The position numbers were made by a program, and so were the translations under genes. 64,000 bases of DNA from Sinohyriopsis cumingii. Its lineage: Eukaryota > Mollusca > Bivalvia > Unionida > Unionidae. The notes beneath the pieces are model-generated. The model did not search any database, was not told the DNA's origin, and saw nothing but the letters and a program-made list of their open reading frames with translations. Positions within the stretch are counted from its first letter, which is position 1. Every line of letters begins with the position of its first letter. Location: positions 131,478,725 to 131,542,724 of the forward strand of contig CM068829.1 of the NCBI GenBank assembly GCA_028554795.2, written 5' to 3'. Positions 8,484 to 63,520 of the stretch are shown in pieces.

Positions 8484-8774
8484 TTAGATGACCGTCGGGT
8501 CAAAACAGCCTTCCGGTAGCGATTTATTCTGCAAGAGCATGAGCTGAGACGAGCGTGGTGTCGCAGTGGCATCCATTTTGAATTTGCTTAGATTCCGCTC
8601 TATCGTTATTACGTACTTCTGAAAGTTGAACAGGTGTACGGTGAACTTGTGTGCATTTGAAACAATGGAGATAATGTTGGAATACTCTATGCTAATTTCA
8701 TGTACTGTCACGGAAAATTCCTTATGTGTAGTGTTTGGAAACAACGCAATGCCTAAAGCAGATAGATGATTCAT
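8484..8774 (-). CDS. Possible terminal exon, unknown protein
   Basis: A minus-strand frame ending at a TAA at 8484. A potential acceptor (CTGCTTTAG|GC) lies near 8757. The peptide has a plausible composition (EFSVTVHEISIEYSNIIS.., KYVITIERNLSKFKMDATAT.., ending SLPEGCFDPTVI), but I do not recognise a domain. It may belong to the same gene as the exon at 7823-7985, although it would then lie upstream of it and yet carries a stop. A separate gene or relic is more likely. Confidence 0.25.
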   Translation of the reverse strand: MNHLSALGIALFPNTTHKEFSVTVHEISIEYSNIISIVSNAHKFTVHLFNFQKYVITIERNLSKFKMDATATPRSSQLMLLQNKSLPEGCFDPTVI

Positions 8775-35925: not shown

Positions 35926-36431
35926 ACGCTAAGAAAATGTTGAGTCCTCTTCTGTACTGTAATACCGTGGAGTGCTCAAGATAAGTTAATCGTCTACATA
36001 TGTACTATAAACTGTATACCGTTCCTGCTGAATAGAAAATTGTCTACTTCATTTTTTTTTTAAATAAAAGCTACCAACATTTTTAGAATATAAGGAAATA
36101 GCAATCAAACGTATTTTTTTAGCAGTAAGAAAACGTAAACTTCAAGCTGTGATAGCCAATCCCCACCTCTTTGTACCGTTAGCTGGTAGTTCATATGGCA
36201 GAACATCTACCTGTGACCCTAAAGACCCTGGTTCGATGTCAGAAAATTATATTTTTTCTTCAAATAAACCTTTCAGTGCTATAGATAACGCCAATCTCCG
36301 TCATTATCCATTTACAGGTTGTACTCCTTATTTCAATATCTGCTTACCCTTTGTCCAGAAGGTTCTGAAACAACCCTGGTTTCATTGTTTATATCAAATA
36401 TTTTGGATGTTTATTAAATGCCTGTGAGCGC

Positions 36432-36545
36432 TAGAGAGATAGACAGAAAGACAGATAGACAGAGATTGACAGACCAAAGAGACAGAGAAACAGACAAACA
36501 GAAACATACAGACAGAGACAGATAGACAGAAACACACAGGCAAGA
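36432..36545. repeat. (GACA)/(CAGA)-rich simple repeat
   Basis: Imperfect GACAGA units over about 110 bp. The rest of 35930-37110 holds no supported gene. Confidence 0.85.
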
Positions 36546-37292
36546 CAGAGAGGTGAATTTATTATGAAACTGAAGGAATACGTGAAAAAAAATATTTACT
36601 GTATAGACCACATGGGACATCCATCGGCCTTTTCCGTAACGTCTACATATAACATCGGCTGTAGTCGTTGGAATACATAGCAATTGTATGGCTTTCTTGC
36701 TTTGCCTCCAGCGAAATTTACTCAAATGTTGCGGCAGAAAAGGCCAATGATGTTTTTAATGTGCCATGTAAAGAAAAGTAGTTCCAAATATAGTTGTCAA
36801 TGATGGCGAATTATATCCGAGTCTTACTTCTACTTGGCGTAAAAGACCAACTATATTCCGATTGCAGCACAGACACGTTTACTTCAATCTTTCTCAGTCA
36901 ATGGTCTCCATATTATTGTATGTACTCCGAGTCCAGATGTTTGGAATCGCTTCTTCCGGGTGCGTCCACATTTCCATCTTTAATATCGGGTACCGTCTTC
37001 AACCTGGTGTATAAATGAAATAGTACACAGTCGATATAACATTTTTCTCGGCTGTGGTAGACGGGTAAGACATTTATGTTGGTTTAATGGCATTTTAATA
37101 CAGTATTGACTATAAGTAGTGAAGTGGGGTACCCTAGGGACAATGGGACTTACCATTAAAAACAGGGTCCCGGCACTCTGGGGACTATGTAAATTTAACA
37201 TGGGGAAAACTGGCCCGGCACTCTGGGGACAATGGGAATTTAACATGGGAATATAGTTTGGGCCTATCAAGGGACAAGGGGAAATGGAACAG

Positions 37293-37324
37293 GGTCGGGA
37301 CCCTATTTTAATAGGGTCCCGACC
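37293..37324. repeat. Perfect palindrome inside left TIR
   Basis: Two 15-bp arms (GGTCGGGACCCTATT and its complement) separated by TT. The right TIR has the equivalent with 13-bp arms (48929-48960). Conservation in both ends suggests a function such as binding of a replication or terminal protein, or a hairpin; this is inference. Confidence 0.85.
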
Positions 37325-37449
37325 TGATGGGTCTATGGAAATGGAACAGGCGAAAATTGAAACAGGGAGGATTCTCTATTTTTTTTTTTTTAAATAAAAT
37401 AAAAAAGGGGTAGGTAATGAAAGTCAAGGTCTTTTCCAGATATTGGAGT

Positions 37450-37465
37450 GGCCCTGAAAAGGGCC
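37450..37465 (-). terminator. Histone-type 3' stem-loop SL1 (left TIR)
   Basis: On the minus strand: CCAAA, then GGCCCT-TTTC-AGGGCC, then ACTCC, and 13 nt after the stem GAAAAGA. It lies 23 nt beyond the stop codon of the basic ORF at 37489-37719. The form equals the metazoan histone mRNA 3' processing signal (6-bp stem, UUUC loop, purine-rich downstream element). Confidence 0.85.
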
Positions 37466-37488
37466 TTTGGGTTTATGTTAATATGCCC

Positions 37489-37719
37489 TTAACATAAAGG
37501 GCATCTACGACATCTTCTTCTTCTTAAACTTCGTCTAACTGTAGGTCCATAGACTAAAACTCTTTTGAGGCATCCTTGCCTCTCCACGTAAATCCTACGT
37601 AGCCATAGGCTGGTGTCGGTCCTATGGACAACTGTCCACTTGGATCTGACATACATCGATATGTCCGTCCTGAACATCATCGTTGACACAAGTGTAGAAG
37701 ATTGAACGTCGGTCCACAT
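37489..37719 (-). CDS. Small basic Arg-rich protein of the Polinton-like element
   Basis: A 76-codon frame starting MWTDVQSSTL and ending in a strongly basic cluster (RRSLRRRRCRRCPLC). The frame stays open upstream to 37815, but a TATA-like TATAAATA at 37764-37771 places the mRNA start inside it, so the ATG at 37719 is preferred; an ATG at 37732 is out of frame. The stop is followed by stem-loop SL1. Small Arg-rich proteins in this class of element and in adenoviruses can be DNA-condensing core proteins (pX-like), but the family cannot be assigned from sequence alone. Confidence 0.6.
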   Translation of the reverse strand: MWTDVQSSTLVSTMMFRTDISMYVRSKWTVVHRTDTSLWLRRIYVERQGCLKRVLVYGPTVRRSLRRRRCRRCPLC

Positions 37720-37763
37720 GTTGAGGCGCCATGAACAGGTGAATGAATGCAGTGAACTGCGTT

Positions 37764-37771
37764 TATTTATA
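37764..37771 (-). promoter_or_regulatory. TATA box for the basic ORF
   Basis: TATAAATA on the minus strand, about 45 bp before the ATG at 37719. It is nearly back-to-back with the plus-strand TATA box at 37884, so the two ORFs are divergently transcribed. Confidence 0.6.
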
Positions 37772-37883
37772 GAGAGAGGAAGGATTGAAACGATTGAGTT
37801 CATTGACCAATCCAAACACGCGTTACAAAATTCAGTCAGCCCACATCCAATCCGAAGAGAGCAGTCTGTGATGTCACGTGGTC

Positions 37884-37889
37884 TATATA
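37884..37889 (+). promoter_or_regulatory. TATA box for the coiled-coil ORF
   Basis: TCTATATAG lies about 31-36 bp upstream of the ATG at 37920. Just before it is GATGTCACGTGG, which contains an E-box (CACGTG) overlapping a CRE-like TGTCACG string. Confidence 0.6.
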
Positions 37890-37919
37890 GATTCGCTATC
37901 GCCTGTGAGCAGTCAATCC

Positions 37920-38513
37920 ATGCGACAGTTTTTCAACCTGACGGAAACTCAGAAAACGATAAATTGGGGTGCACCAGCGGTGGAGACCGCCCAAGGGAAC
38001 CCGGATTTACTTTCAGAAGAGGTGAATTGGGATTTTGTGGATTTTCTTACCTCGCAAGAATTTTTTCCGGTACCTTCGCCACCTTCTCCTTCATTACCAC
38101 ACGTGGAGAATTTTAGACAGAGACAGAAAGAAGAATTGGAGAAATTTATACAACAGCAAAAGGAAGAGGAACAAGCTTTTCTCCTACAGCAACAAGAGCA
38201 AGAAGAAGAGGTAAGAAAAAAACAACAACAACAACAACAAGCAGCAGCAAAGAAACAAGGGTGTGAAAATCAAACGGTCACGGTACTGTTAGACATTTTA
38301 TCTGAGTTAAGAAGTCTGAAACAAATGTATCAGACTTCTTTATTACGACCGAAGAGAATACGACCTTCCCGAGCTAAACACTCCAACCCTGTGACTAAGC
38401 CTACTGTGCCACCCTTAGTGATTTCAACCAAATTATCATCATCAACAGTACGCAGTCCAGAAGTAGGCCTTGGCCGTGGCAAAGGCTTAAGACAGTTAAA
38501 GTTGATTGCTTAA
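37920..38513 (+). CDS. Gln/Glu-rich coiled-coil protein, unknown function
   Basis: 197 codons starting MRQFFNLTETQKT. This Met is chosen over an earlier non-ATG start because the TATA box at 37884 would lie within the longer frame. Layout: acidic N-terminus, a Pro-rich stretch (PVPSPPSPSLP), a long coiled coil rich in Gln and Glu (about residues 65-120, with the poly-Gln run QQQQQQQAAAKK), a leucine-heptad segment (VTVLLDILSELRSLKQMY) and a basic Pro-rich tail (RPKRIRPSRAKHS). It is followed 24 nt downstream by stem-loop SL2. It could be a minor virion or assembly protein; that is inference. Confidence 0.7.
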   Translation: MRQFFNLTETQKTINWGAPAVETAQGNPDLLSEEVNWDFVDFLTSQEFFPVPSPPSPSLPHVENFRQRQKEELEKFIQQQKEEEQAFLLQQQEQEEEVRKKQQQQQQAAAKKQGCENQTVTVLLDILSELRSLKQMYQTSLLRPKRIRPSRAKHSNPVTKPTVPPLVISTKLSSSTVRSPEVGLGRGKGLRQLKLIA

Positions 38514-38537
38514 ACTCACCCCTACACCAAGAAAAAA

Positions 38538-38553
38538 GGCCCTTGTCAGGGCC
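38538..38553 (+). terminator. Histone-type 3' stem-loop SL2
   Basis: AAAAAA, then GGCCCT-TGTC-AGGGCC, then ACCCA, with GAAAAGA starting 13 nt after the stem. The loop is TGTC instead of TTTC; stem, flanks and spacing match the other three. Confidence 0.82.
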
Positions 38554-38936
38554 ACCCAAGTTTCTCGAAAAGAGATAGACTTTTAATTGCCAACATCCAT
38601 TCAAACTAAAAAAAAAAACATGTTTTACCCCTATAGTACGTTTCTGTGTATGAGTGTGTGAGTGTACGTTCTTATTTTAAAATCAAAACCCAAAGACACT
38701 TACCTTTTTATAGTTAATTTATTCTTTTATAAATATTTACAATCCAATTCACAATTCACAACAGAGCACTTAAAAAAGTTCATACACTTCTTTTGTCTCA
38801 TTGTTCACTCCCTCTGTTTTTTCAATTTCTTCACCGTCACAGTCTTTTCCTCCTCTTCCTCCTCACTTTCTTCCCTTCTTCTTTTTTTTCTCCTTATTCT
38901 TTTCCTTCACCTGTCTATTTTCTTCCTCTTCTTCTT

Positions 38937-39263
38937 ATTCCTCTTCTTCTTTCTGTTCCTCTGAAGAATCCCCCTCTTCTGGCTCCTCTTGTTTCTTTTT
39001 TGGGCAATCTGGAGACCAGTGTCCTTTTTTTCTTGACAATGATAACAGGTATCTTGACTTTTGTCTCTTCTAACCCGTTTTTTGCTTTTTTGACGGTCTG
39101 GACACTCTGAAGACCAATGCCCTTTCTTCTGACAGATATAGTAAGTATCTTGACTTTTATCTCGAAAGGAAGGTGAGTAGTCCGACGACTGGTCTGAAGA
39201 AAATTTTGTAATGACCCCTCGCAACGCTCTGATGAAATGTTCGATTTGGTTAGTCTCTTCCAT
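38937..39263 (-). pseudogene. CCHC zinc-knuckle protein, frame-broken
   Basis: It starts at MEETNQIEHFIRAL (39263), about 55 bp after a TATA box. Two zinc-knuckle repeats follow the repeated lead RDKSQDT: the first (YYICQKKGHWSSEC) has Tyr where the first Cys should be; in the second the CYHC half is intact, but the reading frame changes in an A-run near 39035-39045 before the GHW half, whose codons continue in another frame. The downstream part is Glu-rich. CCHC knuckles bind single-stranded nucleic acid in many viruses and retroelements. The break may be real decay or a homopolymer sequencing error. Confidence 0.62.
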
Positions 39264-39314
39264 CGTTGTGCTCGGTTTGAGAGTGAAATGAATAGTGAAA
39301 GGACAAGACACACA

Positions 39315-39326
39315 CCCTTTTATATA
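39315..39326 (-). promoter_or_regulatory. TATA box for the zinc-knuckle ORF
   Basis: TATATAAAAGGG on the minus strand, about 55 bp upstream of the ATG at 39263. It is divergent from the polymerase gene that starts at 39398. Confidence 0.6.
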
Positions 39327-39397
39327 CGCTGGTCTGCCATGACTATAAAGTAACCCATGGTGATTAAATTTTAGTAATTTGACTTTTTACAGTCAAG

Positions 39398-42300
39398 ATG
39401 AAACGATCCATTTCATTCAAGAAGAAAGAAGAAGAAAGTAAGAGGCAGAAACGTGATCTATGGCCTCGTACCAGAGCTGAAGTCTTGGCACAGATTCATG
39501 CCAGTGATTTTGAAGAGGACATGAGTGAACCAGAATTTAAGCCCAGAGAGTCTTCCTCTAAACAAAGTTCACCGCCCTTAGTCAACCCTGAAAAGTACTA
39601 TTCCATTCGAGAGACGGAAAAGCGACCCTCTAGAAAGTTCAGAACCACGGCTTACAAATACACTGTGAAGTTTAAAGATTTCAAGTCCGAAGTACCGTTA
39701 GAGAAAGCAGAAGGGTTCATCACCGAGATGTGGGATTCTTTGCTCACCACACTCAAGCGACAATATCAACCCAAAGAAGATGATCGCTTAAGACTTTCCA
39801 TACAACACGACGGCTTGAAATCCCCTGTTTGGATCGAGTTTAGCACCCCTGCAGAATTGACCTCTTCCAAAGTCATGGACAAGATTCAATACGTGCAACA
39901 ATCTAATGACCAGTTTGACATCACCGATGGAAAAGCCACACTGGACATGACCCACGTCTCTCCTCCTCAAGGGACAGCACAGAAAGGTCTTATTGGTGAA
40001 CGGTCTTCGCAACACCAAAACAAGTCTCGTCCAAATTCACAATTCTCAAGACCAGATGTGTTTAGCCCGTGCCATCGTGGTGGCACGAACCTATGTCGAC
40101 AAAAACGACACGACAGAATGGAACAGGACCTGGGAGAACATTCGAAAATCGAACCGAGCCAAACAACGAAATGAAGCAAAACTCTTGTTACAACAAGCTG
40201 GCCTGTCCAAGGACACACCCTGTGGCATTCCTGAGATGCAAAAATTGCAAGATGCCCTAGCTCCACGCTACACCTTGAAAGTGCACCCTCAAGAAGTGCG
40301 CGGACCTCTCTTGTTTCGAGGCCAAGACTTTAAGGACGGAAAAATACATTCATCTCTATCATCACGACGACCATTTCGATACCATTACCGCCATCACCGG
40401 ATTCCTGGGATACAGTTATTACTGTGAGAAATGTGACTATGGCCATAATAATCGAGAACAACACAAACATTGTGGATCGAAATGCTCAGGATGTTTGGCC
40501 TCTCAACCCTGTCTGAGCGTAGGACAAGAACCAGTGCATTGTTCAACTTGTCTGCGCACGTTTGTCAGCCCTGCCTGTTACCAACAACATCTGAAGACGC
40601 AAGGTTCACAGAAGAAATGTGCTTGTCAACTGCTGAGATTGTGCCCCACGTGTGGACAAGGCATACTTACCAATAATACCAAGGCACACGTATGTCGAGG
40701 AAAGGAAAAAATGTCACATTTATCACCACATTATGGACTTGGAACATCAATGCTACGTGCAAAAATACCAACCCCAACCAGAGAAAGAGGACGGTCACAA
40801 GAAGAAAGGCAATTTCATCTTTTTCGATTTTGAATGCATGCAAGAGACCGGCATTCACATTCCTAATTTCTGCGTGGCTCATCGAGCGTGTGAGAAGTGC
40901 ATTCAAGAACCTATCTTCAGTCACTGCCCTCACTGCAGTAAGATTCCTGGAGGACGTGAAAAAATCTTTCGGGGACCGAACACGCTAGCCGATTTCGCCC
41001 GATGGGTCTTAGATCCCATCGACAAGACGTGGAGCCAAGAGGACATCGAACGTTACGGAGATTGTCATCGTCATGCCATGGTGATGGCTCACAATTTCTC
41101 CGGATACGATGGACAGTTTCTTTTGAGGTACTATACGGAACATGGCACTGAACGTCCTAAAGTCACTTTGAACGGAGCCAAAATCATTTTCATGGCTCAT
41201 GCCTCCGACCCTTTCGACTTTCAGGAAGAAATGTTAAAGTATTGTCGTTCCGACCTGGACATTTTACGGCGATGCTGTGGAAAATTTCGAGAACTGTTCA
41301 TGGAACACGGAGGGGTCGATCCTTTGAAAGAAGCTGGCACCATTGCCAAAGCGTGTTCCTTAGTGTACCGGCAACGATTCATGCCTGAAAACACCGTGGC
41401 TGTCATCAGTCCTCAAACGACCAACTATGTCAAACGTCAATACTCGGTCAAAGCCCTACGCTGGTTACATTACTTGTGTGACAAGGAAGACAAATAGATT
41501 CAGCATGCCCGCAACGGAGGAGGCGAAAAGACTATCGGAACGCATTCGGTCGATGGTTGGGACTTAGAAAACCCCAAGATCGTGTACGAGTTTAACGGTT
41601 GCTTATTTCACGGATGTCCCGTCTGTTACCCTGACCGTGGCACTAAAAATCAGTTTTTACAACGAACCATGGAGGACTTGTACCAGGCCACTTGTCAGCG
41701 ACGCCTAAAGTTAGAACAGGAAGGATACCAAGTGGTGGAAATGTGGGAACACGAATACGATCACCGTTTGAAAACCGATCCCGAGTTTAAACGCATCGTG
41801 GAACGTTACCAGTTCATGGACCCCCTGAACCCGAGGGATAGTTTGTACGGAGGAAGGACCAATGCCACCTGTTTGCTGTACCAAGCTGAGGAAGAGAAAG
41901 GAGAAGAAATCGAATACTTGGACGTGTGTTCGCTGTATCCCTACGTGTGCAAATATTGTCGCTTTCCTGCAGGGCACCCACAATTGTTGACGGAACACAT
42001 CGACCTGAAAAACATCCGACAATACGAAGGCTTGATCAAGTGCAAAGTTTTGCCTCCCACGAACCTATACCATCCCGTCTTACCTCACCATTGCCAAGGC
42101 AAACTGATGTTCCTTTGTGCCGTACTTGTGCCGAAACGTGCAACCAAGATCAGCCTTGTCATCACACCCAGGAAGAACGGGCCTTGACGGGGACGTGGGT
42201 CAGCGTAGAATTGTTCAAAGCTCTGGACATGGGATACCAACTGTTAGAAGTGTACGAAATTTGCCACTTTCCCAAGACACAACAATACCACAAGGGTGAC

Positions 42301-43224
42301 CCCACTCAGAAAGGCATTTTCGCAGACTACGTGGATGCCTTTTTGAAACTGAAGCAAGAAGCCAGTGGCTATCCTTCCTGGTGTCACACTCCCGAAGACC
42401 AAATAAAATTCAAAGAGAAATACCGGGAACAAGAAGGCATCACTTTAGATCACATCGAGAAAAACGAAGGCAGGCGATCGTTTGCCAAAGTCATGTTAAA
42501 TTGCTTGTGGGGCAAAATGGCACAACGACCGTGTTTACCCAAGACGGAATATTTGACCGAACCTTCCCGCTATTTCCAGATGATTCACGAGAAAATCAAA
42601 TTCATCAAACACGTGGACGTCGTTCGCGAAAATTTGATCTTAGTGAATTACGAAGAAGATCTGGACTTTGTACAAGACGACCCTTTTGGAAATGTCATCA
42701 TTGCGGCTTACTTGACAGCTTATGCTCGCTTAAAATTGTACGAAGTTTTAGAACTGTTAGGGGAACGTGTCGTGTACTTTGACACGGACAGTTGCATTTA
42801 CATCCATCACCCGAGTCAACATCACCCTGACATCAAAGGAGACCGTTTAGGAGCCTGGACAGACGAGCACCCCGACGACAAGATTTTAAGTTTCGTCAGT
42901 GGTGGTCCTAAAAATTACGGCTACGAATATCGGGACAAACAAGGAGAAGTGCACACGAAGTGTAAAGTGAAAGGATTGACTCTGAATTATCGCACCAGTC
43001 GAGTGGTCAACTTTGGGGTATTGAAAGAAGCCTTGCAATCTAGAGAGGATGAACACCTTAAAGTGACCACCTATCAGCCCAACAAGATTGTACGTTAACC
43101 CACTCACCACATCGTCAGTGGACCTTTGGAAAAAGTCTATCAAATCGTGTACCAGAAGCGAGTTCGACTTCCCAACCACTTTACTTTGCCGTATGGACAT
43201 GTCGGTATAAAACATTGGCTGTAA
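39398..43224 (+). pseudogene. polB: Protein-primed family B DNA polymerase (Polinton type), interrupted
   Basis: About 1270 codons in length, typical of Polinton polymerases. The N-terminal region carries RLSIQHDGLKSPVWIEF and MTHVSPPQG, then a Cys-rich zinc region (CEKCDYGH, CPTCGQ). Exonuclease motifs follow: FFDFEC (Exo I), AHNFSGYD (Exo II), YCRSDLDI (Exo III). Polymerase motifs: DVCSLYPYV (A), KVMLNCLWGKM (B), YFDTDS (C, catalytic DTD). The frame changes near 40.00, 40.35, 40.71 and 42.11 kb, mostly at short homopolymers. In-frame stops lie at 41495-41497 (TAG) and 43096-43098 (TAA), with homologous coding sequence continuing to 43224. As read, it cannot make a full polymerase. It would have served replication of the element. 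Confidence 0.93.
43206..43212 (+). promoter_or_regulatory. TATA box for the first BIR ORF
   Basis: TATAAAA lies 36-42 bp before the ATG at 43248, inside the last codons of the polymerase gene. Confidence 0.6.
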
Positions 43225-43247
43225 GAGGATAGCCACCCACCAGAAGT

Positions 43248-43679
43248 ATGACTTCACCACAGCAAGAATCGAGTGAGAAATCCAGTGAGAACTCCAAGTT
43301 CAAACCCTGCCATTTTCCGGTCTTCTTACCTAACTATTGTGATTGTTCCCGTCGATTGGAAACGTTTCAAGCATGGCCTACGGATAGGGAAGGATTACCT
43401 TCTTCGAATGTTTTAGCTAGAACAGGATTTGTCTACTTGGGACCTGAGTCTGGATTGGGATACGAAGTACAGTGTTTCGCTTGCGGACTGAAGTTACGAA
43501 TGGATCTATGTATCTATAAAGATTCAGCTATTTTGGAACACTGCCCTTGCCTTTCTATGGCCTTTCCACCCATTACACTACGGTACAATTATGACGGTAC
43601 CTTAGAGACGGTACCTTCCAAAACTCGACATAAAAAAGGAACGATGTACAAGCTTGAGACTGCATTGCGACTAGTATAA
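43248..43679 (+). CDS. BIR-domain (IAP-like) protein 1, degenerate zinc site
   Basis: 143 codons starting MTSPQQESSEKS. The BIR framework is clear at about residues 30-95: RRLETFQAWP, LARTGFVYLGP, VQCFACG. The first Cys pair (CFAC) is present. The Cys-to-His spacing is 18 residues instead of the usual 16, and no Cys occupies the usual place after the His, though two Cys follow it closely (EHCPCL). BIR domains of baculovirus and cellular IAPs bind caspases or IAP-binding motifs; whether this one folds or binds is unknown. No RING domain follows. Related to the ORF at 44065. Confidence 0.78.
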   Translation: MTSPQQESSEKSSENSKFKPCHFPVFLPNYCDCSRRLETFQAWPTDREGLPSSNVLARTGFVYLGPESGLGYEVQCFACGLKLRMDLCIYKDSAILEHCPCLSMAFPPITLRYNYDGTLETVPSKTRHKKGTMYKLETALRLV

Positions 43680-43685
43680 AAAGGG
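43675..43685 (+). promoter_or_regulatory. TATA box for the Cys-rich ORF
   Basis: TATAAAAAGGGG overlaps the stop codon region of the preceding BIR ORF and lies about 55-63 bp before the ATG at 43738. Confidence 0.6.
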
Positions 43686-43737
43686 GCTATGGTCAAGATC
43701 GATAGTTCATTGTGACTACCAAGACCAAGCGAACAAG

Positions 43738-44031
43738 ATGAATACTTTCAGAGAAACACAAAACAAGTTCAGACAGGCACAATTCAAGTTTGGTGCCTCT
43801 GAAGTGGAATGCGATTGTGAGCCTTGCGATGGGAACGATACTGTACGTTGTGACCTTAGCGATTCCGTAAAGCATCATGGGAACTTTGTTCTCACTACCT
43901 CTATCATGGAAAGTGACGCTGTGCGTGTCAAACCTGAGGGATGCGAAAGCGATGCCGCTCGTCCTGTTCGACACTTTACTGGGTTTCGTTTTAAAGGTGA
44001 ATGTCCACTTTCACGTCTACCTCCCTACTGA
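43738..44031 (+). CDS. Unknown small Cys-containing protein
   Basis: 97 codons starting MNTFRETQNKFRQ. A cluster of acidic residues and Cys (VECDCEPCDGNDTVRCD) at about residues 22-38 could bind metal. No known family recognised. It has its own TATA box and sits between two BIR ORFs, which suggests an accessory host-interaction role (inference). Confidence 0.5.
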   Translation: MNTFRETQNKFRQAQFKFGASEVECDCEPCDGNDTVRCDLSDSVKHHGNFVLTTSIMESDAVRVKPEGCESDAARPVRHFTGFRFKGECPLSRLPPY

Positions 44032-44064
44032 TGTCATCATCCAGCCCTGAGCAAACACCTGTCC

Positions 44065-44376
44065 ATGTCACCCAACCCTCATCGAAACGAACCTATGAAA
44101 GACGAATATTCGTTTCCTGTGCGTTTGTCGGAATACTGCGACTTTGAAAATCGTCTTCATTCGTTCAAAGGAAAATGGCCTAAGTCTCTGGGAGGACCGA
44201 GCCCCGAAGAATTAGCCAGAGCCGGATTTTTCTACTTGGGCGAAGGGGATAAAGTCAAGTGCTTCAGTTGCGGTGCGTCACTTCGCCACTGTGAACCACA
44301 AGATTCGGCCTACCTAGAACATGCTCGTTGGTCACCGAATTATCTTTACTTACCCTTAGTGGGACCGAGACATTGA
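44065..44376 (+). CDS. BIR-domain (IAP-like) protein 2, last zinc ligand missing
   Basis: 103 codons starting MSPNPHRNEPMKD. A near-canonical BIR: NRLHSFKGKWP, ELARAGFFYLGEGDKVKC, then CFSC, 16 residues, His in YLEHARWSP. The fourth ligand position (Cys in active BIRs) is Tyr in SPNYLYL, so the zinc site lacks one ligand. The gene encodes a single BIR and no RING. Known viral relatives act as apoptosis inhibitors; activity here is not shown. Confidence 0.8.
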   Translation: MSPNPHRNEPMKDEYSFPVRLSEYCDFENRLHSFKGKWPKSLGGPSPEELARAGFFYLGEGDKVKCFSCGASLRHCEPQDSAYLEHARWSPNYLYLPLVGPRH

Positions 44377-44387
44377 AATAACTTAAA

Positions 44388-44777
44388 ATGTCGTTGAAGA
44401 AGAAACCAAACTGGTTAGGAGTCAAATGTTGGACATCACTGAGGCCAGTATTTAAACTCCATTTCAAAAACGATATTGAATCATTACCTAAAGAACTGCA
44501 AGAGAAGATTTACAAGGAAGTTTGGCAGGGGCTTGCCAGAGTGAAATCTCAATGGGTAACTGTAGAACTTTTGTGTCGAGAAATTCACAAGAGGAAAGTG
44601 AAAAAAGTCAACCAGTGTGTTAGATTTCTCTGGGTCAAGGGTGCATTCATCCTATTATATCGCTTTAGACCGTTTACATCAAAAGAGTTCAGTGAGATTC
44701 TTGGACGTTACCCTGAATGGCAGTGGCCAGAAATTACTCACTATGTGGATTACTTTTGCTCTAGGAGAAGATTGTGA
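44388..44777 (+). CDS. LPxEL-helix (F-box-like) protein, family member 1
   Basis: 129 codons starting MSLKKKPNWLG, 12 nt after the previous stop. Residues about 32-46 read ESLPKELQEKIYKEV, which resembles the first helix of an F-box (LPxELxxxI). The rest is helical and Trp/Arg-rich (NQCVRFLWVKGAFILLYRF). The same LPxELxxxIYxE core occurs in the next two ORFs. Viral F-box-like proteins can bring targets to Skp1-cullin ligases, but the match is short and the function is a guess. Confidence 0.55.
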   Translation: MSLKKKPNWLGVKCWTSLRPVFKLHFKNDIESLPKELQEKIYKEVWQGLARVKSQWVTVELLCREIHKRKVKKVNQCVRFLWVKGAFILLYRFRPFTSKEFSEILGRYPEWQWPEITHYVDYFCSRRRL

Positions 44778-44798
44778 ATTGTACGGACTGACCTCTTC

Positions 44799-45250
44799 AT
44801 GGATACTTTGCAAGAGAACATTCGTGCTTTGCCTGTGGAGTTGAGAGAACGCATTTACCGAGAGCTGGTCAAAATACAAGTCAAACGTAAAGAACAGTTG
44901 CATCCGTTACGTCACCGGTGTTTGAACCACTGGTACCTGAATGCTATACAAGGACTGATTCAGTTGAAAGTGTTCCATTGGACAGACATTGATCAACGAT
45001 TCCCTAGTTTTAAAAAGGATTGGTTTGCTATTGATGATTCTATCTACTACATTGTAAACTTGCTGCATCAATTCCAGAGGAAGAGTTAACGAATTACCAA
45101 CATCTTTTATACAATGTCAACTTAGTGAAAAAGGAAACTTCTGAACGAATTGTAATGTGTAAATTAGTGATTAAACGATTTAGATTCGACAATGAATTAA
45201 AACCATGTCTGTGCAAACGGTACATTTATTGTGTCAGAAAGAGGATTTAG
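44799..45250 (+). pseudogene. LPxEL-helix protein, family member 2 (frame-broken)
   Basis: Starts MDTLQENIRALPVELRERIY. The first 40 codons are almost identical in DNA to the copy at 45263. The intact frame stops at 45089, but codons homologous to the later part of the 45263 copy continue in another frame (NYQHLLYNVNLVKKETSER.., then KRYIYCVRK) to a TAG at 45248. The frame changes near 45075. A single-base break, real or from sequencing, is the simplest reading. Confidence 0.6.
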
Positions 45251-45262
45251 TATGACCTATTC

Positions 45263-45754
45263 ATGGATACTTTACAAGAGAACATTCGTGCTTTGCCTGT
45301 GGAGTTGAGAGAACGCATTTACCGAGAGCTGGTCAAAATACAAGTCAAACGTAAAGAACAGTTGCATCCGTTACGTCACCAGATCTTTAACCACTGGTAC
45401 CTGAATGGTATAAGAGAACTGATTCGTCAGAAATTGTTTCAGTGGTCAGACCTTGTTCAATACTTCCAGGCCCCCGATGATCCACGTGTTCATCATTTTG
45501 GTTACTTCGAGATTCACCTAGTGCAACGCATTGAAGAAGACAAGTTAAAGGATTACAAAGGTCTATTACGTGGAATCTACTTAGCGGAAGAGGAAACTTC
45601 TAATCGAACTCTGAAGTTTAGGTTACAGTTTGGAGCATTTAGATTCCCCACTGGAGAACGAAGATCTCTGGCTAGAAAGTACGTGTATTGTTTCCGAAAC
45701 AAAGAGAGTATAAAAACAGGTTGCCATGCCACGACTTTTATCACAGGTGACTGA
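45263..45754 (+). CDS. LPxEL-helix protein, family member 3 (tandem copy)
   Basis: 163 codons, same start as the copy at 44799 (offset 464 bp). After the shared N-terminal 40 codons the sequence diverges (RHQIFNHWYLNGIRELIRQK against the first copy's LNHWYLNAIQGLIQLK), then HHFGYFEIHLVQRIEED and a basic end (KYVYCFRNKESIKTG). The last bases overlap the next ORF. This is the only apparently intact full-length member of the pair. Confidence 0.62.
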   Translation: MDTLQENIRALPVELRERIYRELVKIQVKRKEQLHPLRHQIFNHWYLNGIRELIRQKLFQWSDLVQYFQAPDDPRVHHFGYFEIHLVQRIEEDKLKDYKGLLRGIYLAEEETSNRTLKFRLQFGAFRFPTGERRSLARKYVYCFRNKESIKTGCHATTFITGD

Positions 45755-45950
45755 ACAGATTCCGTGGAAGGAACTCAATGACCATATTCAAACCGTGGAT
45801 CATTACCATCAATTATTACAAGAACTGTATCAAATCAATTTGGGACGACGCATAGTGTGTGTCTTAGTGGCTTGTTTTCTGGGATTTCGTTTACCAGCCG
45901 ATTCCTTGTGGACTCTTTACGAACAGTACTTACCACCCCAATGGCCTTAA
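45726..45950 (+). CDS. Unknown small protein
   Basis: 74 codons starting MPRLLSQVTEQIPW. It overlaps the end of the preceding ORF by 29 bp and the start of the next by 10 bp. Helical, with a hydrophobic stretch (RIVCVLVACFLGFRL). A TATAAAAA string at 45709-45716 is close upstream, but probably too close to serve this ATG. No family recognised. Confidence 0.45.
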   Translation: MPRLLSQVTEQIPWKELNDHIQTVDHYHQLLQELYQINLGRRIVCVLVACFLGFRLPADSLWTLYEQYLPPQWP

Positions 45951-46445
45951 ATGGTCACGAAAGACTCCTTTTGCTCAAAGCCTTGCGTTTTCATCTGGAT
46001 ACTTCTCGACCTCTACGGGAAAAAAAGATTCGTCAACTTTTAGCTACCGAAGACGTGTATGACGATGTGTGTGTAGCTTGTGACTTACACCCCCATTGGA
46101 CAGATGTCCGTACCTGGAAAAAAGGGGGTTTTGAGGCTTGGACCCAAGAAGTGGCCCAGTATGCACGAGAGTTGTTCAAGGAAAAAAGTCACTTTTCAAC
46201 CAGTGTTAGTGACGGTGCCAGAAGAACCCGTTACCCAGGACAGGACTGTCGTGGACATGCCTGAAAGAGCCTTTCGGAAGGACACTTGTGTGACCTTACC
46301 CCCTATAGAACTGGTCAGAACATTACCCAAAACATGTTGTACAGACACTTGTTTTTATTCCACGTTAATGATTTTCATGTGCCTTTTATCGTTGTACTTA
46401 AGCCTTTGGCTTTTATGTATTTTTGTCTTTCGTGTTCATGTTTAA
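45941..46445 (+). pseudogene. Unknown protein with C-terminal membrane segment, frame-broken
   Basis: Starts MALNGHERLLLLKALRFH at 45941, overlapping the previous stop. It reads to a stop at 46264; from about 46190 a second frame carries the more protein-like sequence (VPEEPVTQDRTVVDMPERAF, then a hydrophobic segment STLMIFMCLLSLYLSLWLLCIFVF) to 46445. The switch sits at a short A-run. It is either one interrupted gene or two overlapping ORFs. Confidence 0.45.
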
Positions 46446-46452
46446 AACATTC

Positions 46453-46458
46453 AATAAA
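46453..46458 (+). terminator. Poly(A) signal AATAAA closing the central gene cluster
   Basis: AATAAA follows the stop at 46445 within 10 bp and precedes the ATPase promoter. Genes from the polymerase to this point have no histone-type stem-loop after them. Confidence 0.6.
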
Positions 46459-46475
46459 CGTGTTCTGAAAAAAAG

Positions 46476-46483
46476 TATATAAA
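46476..46483 (+). promoter_or_regulatory. TATA box for the ATPase gene
   Basis: TATATAAA lies about 50 bp before the ATG at 46530 and just after the AATAAA signal. Confidence 0.6.
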
Positions 46484-46529
46484 CTCTTCTCTTGTTTGTT
46501 TTCGTGTCACAAGTGACATTCCTGACACT

Positions 46530-47021
46530 ATGGCTACCTCTGCCAGTTCGGAGGCTTTGTATCTTCGCCATCCCTTTAACATGCTCATTGCTGGACCTAG
46601 CGGTTCAGGCAAAACCGAATTCGTCAAACGTTTGATCGAACGTAAACATCATTTGATCGATCGGCCACCTCAACGCATCGTGTGGTGTTACAAAGAGTGG
46701 CAATTGGCGTACAGCCTCTTGCGAGAAAATCAAGGCGATTCCATCGTGTTTGTGGAAGGCATTCCTAAAGAAGACGATGGCATCGTCTCTGACTCCTGTC
46801 AAACCCATTTGGTCATTTTCGACGACATGTTAGGAGAAGACGAAGAAGAAATTAAACTGTGGTTCACGCGCAAAGGGCATCACCGTAATGCTTGGACCGT
46901 CAGGTCGAAGTACTTTTGTGTACATATCGATCTGATTGTAAGGCCTATATTTTTGTTTTTGTTTGAGTGGGATTGGACCCAGCACGCACTCTGTCATTCA
47001 TTTGCATTGATAAGCGACTAG
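46530..47021 (+). pseudogene. Packaging-type (FtsK/A32-like) ATPase, 3'-truncated
   Basis: The frame starts MATSASSEALYLRHPFNM. Walker A is GPSGSGKT (about residues 23-30), followed by the family's IVWCYKEWQ segment; Walker B is THLVIFDDML. The family signature FTxxGHHRN (here FTRKGHHRN) appears at about residues 112-120. After it, near 46895, similarity ends; the last 40 codons read into unrelated sequence. The genome-packaging ATPase of Polintons and adintoviruses is normally longer and followed by protease and capsid genes, none of which is present. The break probably marks one edge of a large internal deletion. Confidence 0.88.
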
Positions 47022-47112
47022 TGGGATTGGACACGGTCGTGTTAGTCCGTGAACCCACGAGACCCATCTGGCCGTCCCAGTTCCTAATTAACTGGTCTAT
47101 AGTTATAGATTT

Positions 47113-47428
47113 GATATTCATTTTATGTATGAATTTATTATTGTAGACTAATACATTTCGTTGCTTAGCTGGTTTCCGATTAGATTCTCTCGTCGATGGC
47201 ACTCGCAGTCTCATAAATGGAGACTTCAGGAGAACCGAATCCTAGTCCCTGTCATTGGTTTAAAAAGGGTGATATTCATTTCATGTATGAATTTATTATT
47301 GTAGACTAGTAAATTTCGTTGCTTAGCTGGTTTCCGATTAGATTCTCTCGTCGATGGAACTCACAGTCTCATAAATGGAGACTTCAGGAGAACCGAATCC
47401 TAGTCCCTGCCATTGGTCTAAAAAGGGT
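47113..47428 (+). repeat. Two-copy tandem duplication, 158-bp unit
   Basis: Units 47113-47270 and 47271-47428 are about 95% identical (both with TGTATGAATTTATTATTG, TTCGTTGCTTAGCTGG and GGAGACTTCAGGAGAACC). They lie just after the truncated ATPase. A shorter repeat, GTGGGATTGGAC, occurs at about 46967 and 47021. The origin is unknown. Confidence 0.92.
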
Positions 47429-47519
47429 ATATTGCTTAATTATTTATTTATGATTTGTTTTTTTTTTTAAATTTTTGTATATGTTTCAATATTTTTAAGG
47501 AAAGTTATGATGTTGTTGT

Positions 47520-47693
47520 ATGTGGTATTTAAATTGGGGTTTGTGCTATCAAGGAATTCTGGATATGTACTCGGCGATCCTATTTTATTCTGAAGCCACT
47601 CATTCCGCCTCCGCTCTCCCCCAAAAAAGAGTGAAAGGAGATTGGAGTAGGAGATGTGTGTGTGGTGCCAGGCCTGGAAGGTGCAACCATTAA
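47520..47693 (+). CDS. Small ORF ending in a Cys/Arg-rich tail, followed by SL3
   Basis: 57 codons starting MWYLNWGLCYQGILD and ending KGDWSRRCVCGARPGRCNH. It is too short to judge alone and may be the 3' remnant of a longer gene cut by the upstream deletion. Support comes from position: the stop is 27 nt before stem-loop SL3, the same arrangement as the other three SL-linked ORFs. Confidence 0.5.
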   Translation: MWYLNWGLCYQGILDMYSAILFYSEATHSASALPQKRVKGDWSRRCVCGARPGRCNH

Positions 47694-47720
47694 CCAGGTG
47701 CCCTGGAGTTCAAAACAAAC

Positions 47721-47736
47721 AGCCCTTTTCAGGGCT
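47721..47736 (+). terminator. Histone-type 3' stem-loop SL3
   Basis: CAAAC, then AGCCCT-TTTC-AGGGCT, then ACCCA, with GAAAAGA starting 13 nt after the stem. The stem differs from the others by a compensated pair (A-T in place of G-C at the base), so base pairing is kept while sequence changes. Confidence 0.85.
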
Positions 47737-47844
47737 ACCCAAACCTTTAGAAAAGAAATAACAATCGATTTGCCAATGTGTGTATGTAGAGTAGTGTGAA
47801 TATAAACACTGACTCTTTTTTTCCTAGTGTGAGTGTATGTGTTT

Positions 47845-48020
47845 GTGTTTGTAAGCACTCACGTATGTTTGTGTGGATAGTAGATTATTGGGCTTTGTAA
47901 GTGATCACGTATGTTTGTGTGGATAGTAGATTAGGGTTTCATTTTAATGCTTTGTGTGTGTGAATAATAGATTTTGGGTTTGTTTATTGATGCTTCACGT
48001 ATGTGGATAGTAGATAATAT
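47845..48020 (+). repeat. TCACGTATGTTTGTGTGGATAG tandem repeat
   Basis: About four copies of a roughly 45-50 bp unit with CACGTATG and GTGGATAGTAGAT, progressively diverged, between SL3 and the promoter region of the 48188 ORF. Confidence 0.8.
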
Positions 48021-48040
48021 GAAATGAGAAAAGTAGGGGA

Positions 48041-48123
48041 TGTTTTCCTTCACGTCCGCGCGTTTTAAGTGATGATCTAGGTAATATAAGTTTTGAGTCT
48101 GGGGGTGTTTTCCTTCACGTCCG
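48041..48123 (+). promoter_or_regulatory. Duplicated TGTTTTCCTTCACGTCCG motif and TATA-like box upstream of the 48188 ORF
   Basis: An exact 18-bp motif occurs at 48041-48058 and 48106-48123, 65 bp apart. It is followed by CGTATAAGAA (48131-48140), about 50 bp before the ATG. This is a plausible upstream activating repeat. Confidence 0.5.
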
Positions 48124-48187
48124 TGCTTTTCGTATAAGAATCCACAGTGTTCGTCGTTCGCACCATTCTAAGGAATAAACAAAGAAG

Positions 48188-48361
48188 ATGGAGGTGACAA
48201 AATTATTTAACGATTTGAGACATAGATATTTTTGGATCATGGATGGGACTTATGTAGTAGAAAGATTGAATAAGGAAGGAAGATTTGAAGGTAGCCTGAA
48301 CAATGTGAAGAGTCTTGGAGTAGCAAAAGATCTAATGGGGGAATGGTTGAGGAAGAAGTAG
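48188..48361 (+). CDS. Unknown 57-codon ORF (possibly the N-terminal part of a broken gene)
   Basis: Starts MEVTKLFNDLRHRYFW and ends MGEWLRKK. The following 75 bp read poorly in all frames, then an open frame continues from 48439. The two segments may be one decayed gene whose 3' end is marked by SL4. Confidence 0.45.
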   Translation: MEVTKLFNDLRHRYFWIMDGTYVVERLNKEGRFEGSLNNVKSLGVAKDLMGEWLRKK

Positions 48362-48438
48362 AAAGAATCAGATGATTCATTGACCCACCTTACGTGAGAG
48401 TATGTACTTTATAGGAAGCCTTGGATCATGTCATATAA

Positions 48439-48768
48439 GTCAGGAGCTTCCTAGAAAATAGCTTTCATTGGACTGACTGGTGGTACGTAAAGTGGGGTTG
48501 TAACCAGTTGATAAAAGCAGAAGAACTAATTAGAGAGGTAAAGAAAGTAGAAATGATGAAGATAAAAGAAAAATGGAGCAAAGATAGAAAGGAACAAGAG
48601 AATAAGAAGAAGAAATTAGAGTTTGAAAGATTGAATAACAACTGGATGAAGATCCAACAGAAATTCAGAGCGATGGGTCATCCTGACTGGATAACAGAAA
48701 CTGAAAAGAGGAATAAGAAAGGAATAATGGAAAAAGTGAGAAGATGGTGGAAGAAGTGGAGGTGTTAG
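48439..48768 (+). pseudogene. Lys/Glu-rich coiled-coil ORF ending at SL4
   Basis: Open from a stop at 48436-48438 to the TAG at 48766. It carries an HWTDWW segment recalling HWTD in the 44799 ORF, then a charged coiled coil (EELIREVKKVEMMKIKEKW) and a basic Trp-rich end (KVRRWWKKWRC). The first ATG in frame is at 48553, so the N-terminus may be missing. The stop lies 17 nt before SL4. Confidence 0.5.
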
Positions 48769-48785
48769 AAGAAGAAAGCCCCAAA

Positions 48786-48801
48786 GGCCCTTTTCAGGGC
48801 C
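48786..48801 (+). terminator. Histone-type 3' stem-loop SL4 (right TIR)
   Basis: CCAAA, then GGCCCT-TTTC-AGGGCC, then ACTCC, with GAAAAGA 13 nt after the stem. It is the TIR counterpart of SL1 and serves the plus-strand ORF that ends at 48768. Confidence 0.85.
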
Positions 48802-48928
48802 ACTCCAATATCTCGAAAAGACCTTGACTTTCATTGCCTACCCCTTTTTTATTTTTTTTATTTTTAAAAAAAAATAGAGACCCCTCCTTGTTTCAATTTT
48901 CGCCTGTTCCATTTCCATAGACCCATCA

Positions 48929-48960
48929 GGTCGGGACCCTACTAAAATAGGGTCCCGACC
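48929..48960. repeat. Palindrome inside right TIR
   Basis: 13-bp arms (GGTCGGGACCCTA and its complement) around CTAAAA; equivalent of 37293-37324. Confidence 0.85.
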
Positions 48961-49389
48961 CTGTTCCATTTCCCCTTGTCCCTTGATAGGCCCACACTAT
49001 ATTCCCATGTTCAATTCCCATTGTCCCTAGACAGGCCCAAACTATATTCCCATGTTAAATTCCCATTGTCCCCAGAGTGCCGGGCAAGTTTTCCCCATGT
49101 TAAATTTACATAGTCCCCAGAGTGCCGTGACCCTGTTTTTAATGGTAAGTCCCATTGTCCCTACTACTATATTATGCCAATCAAATGGGAACTAATGTGT
49201 TTTCCATTGATACAACGGGACAGGCAAACCGGGTTCGCCTGGGCAGGTATGGAATAACACTGAGATAAGTCCTTAATTATGTATAGTTTTCTGTCTGACT
49301 CCTGCGGTTATTATTTGTTGAAGTTACATGTATTATGTAAATTGATCCAGTGGCCTACATTATCTCAGTAAAGATCTTCTATTTCCTTT

Positions 49390-49560
49390 GTTCATTTTCT
49401 CCACTTGATATTTGCTTTTTTACACTTGATATATCACCTCTTTCAACTCTGTACTCGCTTCTCTCTGCTCGATACTCGCTATGGCGGACTTGATTCATTA
49501 GAACTCAATACTTTCTTTTTCAGCTTGATACTCGATTTTATCGTTTTGATTTAAGCTACA
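49390..49560. repeat. CTTGATACTCG-type minisatellite
   Basis: About seven loose copies of a 20-25 bp unit with TTGATACTCGCTTT, in reverse complement to the array at 33958-34146. From 49570 to 50800 there is only a G-run (49709-49726), an (ATGT)n tract (50250-50281) and no supported gene. Confidence 0.7.
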
Positions 49561-50834
49561 TACCACAACAAAAAAAAAAATGGGCAAAAATGTATGGAAA
49601 TCTGAAGAGTGAGAGAGAAAAAAGCTAAAGCTGCATGAAAACCTTGATTTATAGATGAAATACTTTCCACTCGTGCGATTCACAGATTTCCACATACTTG
49701 TGATCCTTGCGGGGGGGGGGGGGGGAGCGAATTCAAAGGCGGGTTTGATAAAATTGTGCGACATGTCTTATTAATTTAGAAAATGTAGATTAAACACAGA
49801 ATATGAATGTGTGTTTTTGTTTCTTTATTGGTATCATGTAGCACTAGAAAAAGTCCAAAGGAAAGTGAGGGGGTAACTGATATTTTCATTTGAGCCGTTG
49901 AAATTTTTTATTCTTTCTCTTATTTCACCTCAAGATAATGATGTTTTATTTTCAACTAATATACTTGAAATAATATTTATTTCTTTTCGCTATAAACCAG
50001 AACAAAAATACTTTTCCAATAGATTTGAGAGTCCTGTTGTTTTCCTCAAAAATGTCTCAAAACCAACCAGCCCCGCCTCGAAAAATTATTTGGTCAGTCC
50101 CTAACCGATAAAAGTCTTATTTTACTTCGCAGTTGGTGCCAATGTAGATAGGCTATTAATGATAAGAATTAACTATTGAAGGTCGAATGAACTGATGAAT
50201 TGAAAGAATGGGTGTATGGTGTATAGATGAATATGTAAATGGAAACATGTATGTATGTATGTATGTATGTATGTATGTATGTTTACGACTTTATAGTCTT
50301 AAAAAACTAAGAAACAGAAAAAGCGATAACAAAAAGTTTTATAAAATTCAGCAAATAATTTATTTCAATAGAAAACAGAGTGAACATTTAAATGGATCTT
50401 ACTTGTGAATTAAATCCCAAAAGCTCCTAAACGTTTTATCACAAATCCAAAAGTATGGAGTGGTCCAAATTAACTCCAGTGGTGTAACTATTGAAATCCA
50501 AAACATGAATGTGCTAAGGTGCCAATAATCTTAAATGTGCTGATGCGCCAACAGTACGGATGTATAACAATGATAAAATCCAAAATGTCCTTGAACGAAT
50601 TCACAATAATCCCCCCCCCCCCAATGATTTTTGTCAGAAAGTCAACAAACACTTTGTAATTACAATGAATAATTTAAATATGGCAAATCGGCACAGCACT
50701 GTACAAAATACATTGCAGACAATTGTAGACTGAACTTAGCACAACTTGAGAGTAAACGAGTATAAAAAATATTGTAAATCCATAGCGTTCTCTATGCGCT
50801 ATTCTTTGATCAGGTATAGTTCGTGTTTAGCTTC

Positions 50835-51575: not shown

Positions 51576-63520
<11,945 letters not shown>

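Follow-up and report, generated by a model that had tools for sequence, protein, structure and literature searches.

The 64,000-nucleotide stretch of the Sinohyriopsis cumingii genome analysed here (assembly GCA_028554795.2, contig CM068829.1, positions 131,478,725 to 131,542,724; the whole stretch is hereafter called the window) carries a copy of an element that, judged by its genes and termini, is a virus-like transposon of the Polinton/adintovirus type in this unionid mussel. Genes of this element are followed by hairpins of the kind that terminates replication-dependent histone mRNAs (SL1 to SL4, Table 1). A preliminary description of this DNA had placed four such hairpins here, 17-27 nt past stop codons. 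All four were located at the positions and on the strands described, each with 6 of 6 stem pairs formed and a 4-nt loop, and their distances from the stop codon that closes the longest open frame upstream were measured as 23 nt (SL1), 24 nt (SL2), 27 nt (SL3) and 17 nt (SL4).

The hairpins are recognized by the Rfam family RF00032, whose curated gathering score of 34 bits is reached by two of the four (SL4 and SL1). A scan of the 64 kb window with 4227 families returned SL4 with an E-value of 1.8e-6 and SL1 with 4.4e-6, and a scan of positions 36000-50000 returned SL2 with 6.1e-6 and SL3 with 1.2e-5; neither scan produced an RF00032 match beyond these four sites. In addition, a purine box (GAAAAGA) that the preliminary description had overlooked lies exactly 13 nt 3' of the stem at 4/4 sites. 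Its position is that of the histone downstream element (HDE), the site in histone pre-mRNA for the U7 small nuclear ribonucleoprotein (U7 snRNP), and the combination of hairpin, box and fixed distance corresponds to the layout that SLBP and U7 snRNP read. RNAfold gives modest z-scores, between -1.3 and -3.4, for isolated 51-nt segments; the evidence rests on the family match, the HDE-like box and the comparison of element copies.

Over 49 nt, SL3 is 69% and SL4 84% identical to SL2, and the four sites look like copies of one cassette of ~50 nt. SL1 and SL4 are indeed copies within the terminal inverted repeats (TIRs), as had been proposed from the sequence, but the accompanying count of three independent examples is too strong because the cassettes are homologous.

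Table 1. Features of the element copy in the window (positions of the window; ORF, open reading frame)
Feature	Positions	Strand	Basis or remark
Left TIR, with SL1 and its HDE at inner end	37136..37471	.	inverted repeats, arm alignment
HDE-like box GAAAAGA of SL1	37430..37436	-	sequence, 13 nt past stem
SL1 histone-type stem-loop	37450..37465	-	RF00032 match 37425-37470, 34.1 bits, at or above gathering score
SL1 gene, short frame, Arg-rich C terminus	37489..37815	-	ORF from TTG; isoelectric point (pI) of window copy 11.5
SL2 gene, about 190-210 amino acids (aa), Gln-rich middle, C terminus GRGKGLRQLKLIA	37878..38513	+	ORF
SL2 histone-type stem-loop	38538..38553	+	RF00032 match 38533-38578, 31.9 bits, below gathering score
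HDE-like box GAAAAGA of SL2	38567..38573	+	sequence, 13 nt past stem
Zinc-knuckle gene without stem-loop	38907..39311	-	PF00098
DNA polymerase B (PolB; DNA_pol_B_2), split into several frames	40652..43098	+	PF03175 in 3 ORFs, one just below cut-off
BIR-domain protein 1 (inhibitor-of-apoptosis type)	43248..43679	+	PF00653, E 1.5e-9
BIR-domain protein 2 (inhibitor-of-apoptosis type)	44065..44376	+	PF00653, E 6.6e-20
AATAAA, 77 nt before ATPase ATG	46453..46458	+	sequence; 76 nt before in L093
Packaging ATPase (Pox_A32 type), truncated, 163 aa vs 242 aa in L093	46530..47021	+	PF04665
SL3 gene, 3' remnant, 60 open codons, C-terminal end RRCVCGARPGRCNH, stop 47691-47693	47511..47693	+	similar endings in other copies
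SL3 histone-type stem-loop, first pair A-U replacing G-C	47721..47736	+	RF00032 match 47716-47760, 31.1 bits, below gathering score
HDE-like box GAAAAGA of SL3	47750..47756	+	sequence, 13 nt past stem
SL4 gene, 3' part, Lys/Arg-rich, C-terminal KVRRWWKKWRC	48553..48768	+	sequence, composition
Right TIR, with SL4 and its HDE at inner end	48780..49162	.	inverted repeats, arm alignment
SL4 histone-type stem-loop	48786..48801	+	RF00032 match 48781-48826, 35.1 bits, at or above gathering score
HDE-like box GAAAAGA of SL4	48815..48821	+	sequence, 13 nt past stem

The genes that end in hairpins sit near both ends of the element: the gene at the left end, the one that diverges from it, one or two genes of the SL3 type and the gene at the right end. 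None of their products has a Pfam match at the cut-off (for SL2, none at 0.01). The leftward SL1 gene encodes 77 aa with a pI of 11.0-11.2 in two other copies of the element, the SL3 gene about 150 aa in copy L005, and the SL4 gene 204 aa in copy L017, the longest among the copies read. The SL2 protein weakly matches a family of phage single-strand DNA-binding proteins (PHROG, phrog_14578, E 0.0067).

The histone genes of the same mussel were used for comparison. These genes are arranged in tandem, each unit spanning about 8.3 kb (662 first-look candidates, 150 of them scored), and in one such unit (L061) the H3, H4, H2B, H2A and H1 genes all terminate in an RF00032 stem-loop (35.0-39.4 bits) that begins 27-38 nt past the stop. 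GAAAAG lies 13 nt past the stem in H3, H4 and H2B, and 14 nt past it in H2A and H1. The element carries both halves of the host's kind of signal, at the host spacing. A TTTCAATTTGCC-like motif is also found ~27 nt past the stems, beyond the HDE, in both the element and the host histone genes. This motif is weak when its position is left free (gene-wise p.04-.29) and yields a Fisher combined p of 1.7e-5 at a fixed offset, with both the offset and the motif examples picked after looking. It could be a third part of the signal or a trace of capture from a histone gene. Because of that choice after looking, capture of the cassette from a host histone gene is best called plausible.

The mussel genome (2.90 Gb) was then searched with RF00032, and the best 75 of 589,472 candidates were scored. 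All 75 reach the cut-off, while one of 14 control genomes gave any signal and none exceeded the cut-off. The 30 of these sites that were read (L001-L030) are all element copies, as judged by gene ends and flanks, and none is a histone gene. These loci hold 54 complete stem-loops, of which 51 have (A/G)AAAAG at 13 nt and three have no such box. The preliminary description had proposed looking for stem-loops soon after stops in related elements, and inside the mussel genome the outcome is positive: an open frame of 80 or more codons precedes 39 of the 54 hairpins, with a median stop-to-stem distance of 24 nt and a distance of 12-36 nt in 37 of the 39.

Since L001-L030 had been found by their stem-loops, loci anchored on the polymerase gene were read as well. 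These 12 loci come from the best-scoring 75 polymerase loci and are therefore biased towards intact copies. SL2 is present in 11 of the 12 and SL1 in 10. Together with the two corresponding window sites, the SL1 and SL2 stems are fully paired in 22 of 23 cases, and GAAAAG lies at 13 nt in 21 of 23. The preliminary description had listed both TTTC and TGTC loops. At SL2, TGTC turned up in the window copy only, and every other SL2 loop found at the stem-loop loci and the polymerase-anchored loci reads TTTC.

Exact genome matches to stem-loop plus HDE were counted by the outermost stem pair, giving 17,185 for G-C, 19,123 for A-U, 238 for A.C and 155 for G.U, with 0 matches to the reversed pattern in each of the four classes; as the copies are related, these counts do not represent independent events. 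The A-U pair of SL3, which had been noted earlier as a compensated change, is real and marks the SL3 class, being present at 9 of the 30 stem-loop loci, in the window copy and in copy L093. The preferred reading is a single, inherited compensated change by which this class is defined. When spacers of 10-16 nt were allowed, the distance to the box was 13 nt in 100 of the 100 G-C-type matches listed, and 13 nt in 87 and 14 nt in 13 of the 100 A-U-type matches listed; 13 and 14 nt are the same two distances as in the host histone genes. The element family is hugely amplified, and the signal is a family trait and not a local accident.

Among the 100 G-C-type matches listed there are 11 divergent neighbour pairs less than 1.5 kb apart and no convergent pair, and 10 of these 11 are separated by 1,075-1,109 bp, as SL1 and SL2 are. 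The 100 A-U-type matches listed (contig C1) include 37 same-strand neighbour pairs less than 1.5 kb apart, 36 of them at 768-886 bp. The frequency of these tandem pairs points to two SL3-type genes, and hence five stem-loops, in many elements, which suggests that the SL3 gene was duplicated. At positions 421 and 1358 of copy L094, SL1 and SL2 lie on the same strand and are not divergent, an arrangement that could reflect a local inversion or a neighbouring insertion.

Conservation was expressed as mean pairwise differences per site among the polymerase-anchored copies, leaving out the window copy. For the SL1 class (n=10), the values are.182 for the coding end,.025 for the stem-loop,.085 for the spacer,.000 for the HDE,.069 for the next 20 nt and.351 for the far flank. 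The corresponding values for the SL2 class (n=11) are.025,.000,.084,.026,.127 and.101. The spacer shows at least three times as many differences per site as the hairpin and the HDE that flank it, but its length is kept, with 1 gap in 130 cells for the SL1 class and 0 in 143 for the SL2 class. Stem-loop and HDE are held while the intervening letters drift.

We observe the hairpin, the box, their spacing, the position of the genes, the conservation and the host parallel, and we consider it very probable that short genes near the ends of the element carry a 3' processing signal of the host histone type, which would be read by SLBP and U7 and linked to S phase. The preliminary description had proposed histone-mRNA-type 3' signals for a Polinton-like element, and this proposal gains strong support from the family match, the HDE, the host-like spacing, the layout of the host histone genes and the conservation among copies. 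We infer that SLBP and U7 process these transcripts, that the mRNAs lack poly(A) and are timed with the cell cycle, and that a poly(A) class exists beside them. Host SLBP would bind the hairpin, and U7 snRNP would pair with the GAAAAGA box, the predicted pairing targets of the host U7 5' end being CTCGAAAAGA and CTAGAAAAGA. Cleavage would occur between hairpin and box, with the fixed spacer determining the distance, and would leave an mRNA that ends just past the hairpin and has no poly(A). If they behave as histone mRNAs are known to do, from which the S-phase timing is taken, the hairpin mRNAs would persist and be translated efficiently chiefly during host DNA replication, when the DNA of the element could be copied too. 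Polyadenylation would serve the genes that have no hairpin, so that the element would produce two classes of mRNA.

Several results weigh against this proposal. The host U7 RNA was not found with RF00066 at 1e-3, a strict threshold at which the controls were silent, and the best match at E<=10 has 29.3 bits and an E-value of 0.27, at a setting where 12 of 14 prokaryote controls also gave signals. A pattern of TCTTTTC plus an Sm site has 22 hits against 16 for the reversed pattern, and no convincing 3' hairpin was seen in the 20 of 22 hits that were read (two with long gaps were left out of the reading). An exon-by-exon search for host SLBP with PF15247 matched 0 of 14 candidates, with silent controls. 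The searches for U7 and for SLBP are both weak, and both factors likely exist, because the stem-loops of the host histone genes are intact. Among the 12 polymerase-anchored loci, L105 lacks both SL1 and SL2 and L097 is without SL1; in L102 one stem pair is broken and one HDE is altered, and L094 has a 12-nt spacer. The coding end of the SL2 class is as conserved as its HDE, such that conservation in this class is demonstrated relative to the spacer only. AATAAA or ATTAAA occurs within -60 to +96 of the stem at 8 of 23 SL1/SL2 sites, and six of these eight hexamers are at -8, between stop and stem. Lastly, no relative was detected in IMG/VR, either with a PolB fragment or with an alignment of 17 PolB sequences.

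SLBP and U7 might read these signals to an end other than replication timing, such as short 3' ends and clean termination near the tips of the element, or activity in the germ line or in oocytes, which store histone mRNAs. We regard this as improbable but compatible with the same data: the stop-to-stem distance is short (the median given above), and SL1 and SL4 lie at the inner edge of the TIRs, where read-through would enter host DNA, whereas SL2 and SL3 are internal to the element. A cassette that was caught from a histone gene and has spread with the element, unused, is considerably less likely. Conservation speaks against such a passenger, as stem-loop and HDE vary less than the spacer and spacer length is kept, and so do the compensated pair of the SL3 class and the sense orientation of the cassette behind the stops of several different genes. 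The homology of the cassettes would nonetheless fit it, their high copy number is explained by transposition alone, and the likeness to the 3' regions of host histone genes may continue beyond the HDE if the p of 1.7e-5, with its offset and examples picked after looking, is taken at face value.

We attach almost no probability to a hairpin that works in DNA, as a binding or folding site near the TIRs for replication or integration; SL1 and SL4 do lie within the TIRs, but SL2 and SL3 are internal, all four hairpins run along the direction of transcription just past stops, and their flanks and HDE are those of histone pre-mRNA. Chance resemblance, for which one could cite the two of four window hits below the Rfam gathering score, is rejected as equally remote on the grounds of four hits with E-values of 4e-7 to 1e-5 each, an HDE at the host spacing in 4/4, thousands of genome copies against 0 control matches, and conservation.

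The histone-type signal may serve only part of the element. Besides the AATAAA ahead of the ATPase gene, L093 has one at position 8637, roughly 390 nt past the last capsid-group gene, and the window copy has one at 38723 (-), downstream of the leftward zinc-knuckle gene, where 8 of 14 copies have a same-strand AATAAA. These hexamers suggest two mRNA classes in one element, although those near 8 of the 23 SL1/SL2 stems speak against a sharp division. We judge the chances to be even that the element took over the histone 3' cassette to form a second class, with tail-less, SLBP-bound and replication-coupled mRNAs from the tip genes and polyadenylated mRNAs for polymerase and capsid. If true, the more than 36,000 exact signals, compared with 662 first-look histone candidates, mean that the element could compete for SLBP and U7.

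The placement of the element with Polintons and adintoviruses is based on its PolB, the rve and chromodomain frames of the integrase in L093, the Pox_A32-type ATPase, the candidate capsid homologue and the TIRs. The closest species-named homologues of PolB are from bivalves, for example Ostrea, Mercenaria and Mya. When the TIR arms of the window copy are aligned, they differ by 30 mismatches in 369 columns, some non-homologous flank included, and by an indel of about 45 nt. Adintovirus and Polinton insertions are flanked by a 6-bp target-site duplication. None is seen at the window copy (TACCCT at 37130-37135, ACTACT at 49163-49168), an absence that weighs little against the family assignment because this copy is deleted and its arms differ.

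The window copy is internally deleted and broken, with PolB in pieces and a truncated ATPase, and the gap of 700 bp between the ATPase and SL3 leaves no room for integrase and capsid genes. Directly after the truncated ATPase, where those genes are absent, a 158-bp unit occurs twice (95-96% identity) at 47112-47433; this repeat may mark the internal deletion. In L093, the right part of the element has, in order, the ATPase, the integrase frames, a gene that we guess from its order and size to be penton-like, the candidate capsid homologue and small genes. The integrase occupies two overlapping frames, with PF00665 at E 1.1e-7 (32.5 bits, cut-off 32.6) and the PF00385 chromodomain at E 1e-7. 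The candidate capsid homologue is the L093 segment 6873-7913, whose protein family matches PF21738 (double jelly-roll) in one of 12 aligned members, L093 itself giving no match. The sole stem-loop in the 10 kb of L093 is an SL3 at 9268, 42 nt past the last stop.

GC content rises to 0.63 at 59001-60000 of the window, the rest of which is AT-rich. COX1 has three matches on two contigs of the genome, two of them equal (467 bits, C807) and one different (423 bits, C1106), a pattern that doubly uniparental inheritance of mitochondria in unionids might produce. The mitochondrial COX1 of this genome reaches 99% identity to Unionidae sequences, which places the host among the unionid freshwater mussels.

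To our knowledge, histone-type 3' ends are special to replication-dependent histone genes. IMG/VR is believed to hold few animal viruses. A stem-loop pattern retrieved five IMG/VR contigs, of which none matches RF00032 at E 0.05, three have a complete stem and none has a purine box 10-16 nt after the stem; among 19 contigs retrieved with a stem-loop-plus-box pattern, none has a complete stem. The preliminary description knew of no report of such signals in Polintons or adintoviruses, and we likewise located none of histone-type 3' ends in these or other viruses among the titles listed from the literature that could be searched, which leaves out most subscription papers. In the main texts, as available, 'stem-loop' has 0 occurrences in PMC11071296 and PMC8363768, and 'histone' has 0 in PMC10294476 on mollusc Mavericks. 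The signal is of a known kind; that a virus-like element should use it is new, to the extent that this could be checked. An element with the whole histone signal would mean that virus-like elements can couple their expression to the replication of the host by a new route. It would also be a natural system in which to study the minimal SLBP/U7 signal and might place a load on the host histone supply, and other Polintons and adintoviruses of animals can be searched for simply by stem-loop plus HDE.

As far as the available texts describe them, adintoviruses and Polintons (Mavericks) resemble the element in PolB, rve integrase with chromodomain, Pox_A32-type ATPase, a candidate capsid homologue and TIRs. 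The available text of PMC11071296 counts an OTU-like N-terminal PolB domain among the adintovirus features, and that of PMC10294476 reports Mavericks in every mollusc genome analysed there. The element differs from them in its histone-type 3' ends, and its window copy in being without integrase and capsid genes. For the sites with a nearby AATAAA, the H2A.X gene with its dual 3' ends, as presented in the available text of PMC7807067, is a relevant precedent in that it combines the two kinds of end in a single gene, although H2A.X is a histone gene of the host cell and not mobile. The 3' ends of animal replication-dependent histone genes share with those of the element the stem-loop, the ACCC-type 3' flank, the purine box GAAAAG, the spacing of 13-14 nt, a stem soon after the stop and short genes. 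In contrast to those genes, the stem-loop genes described here are not recognisable histones and belong to a virus-like element.

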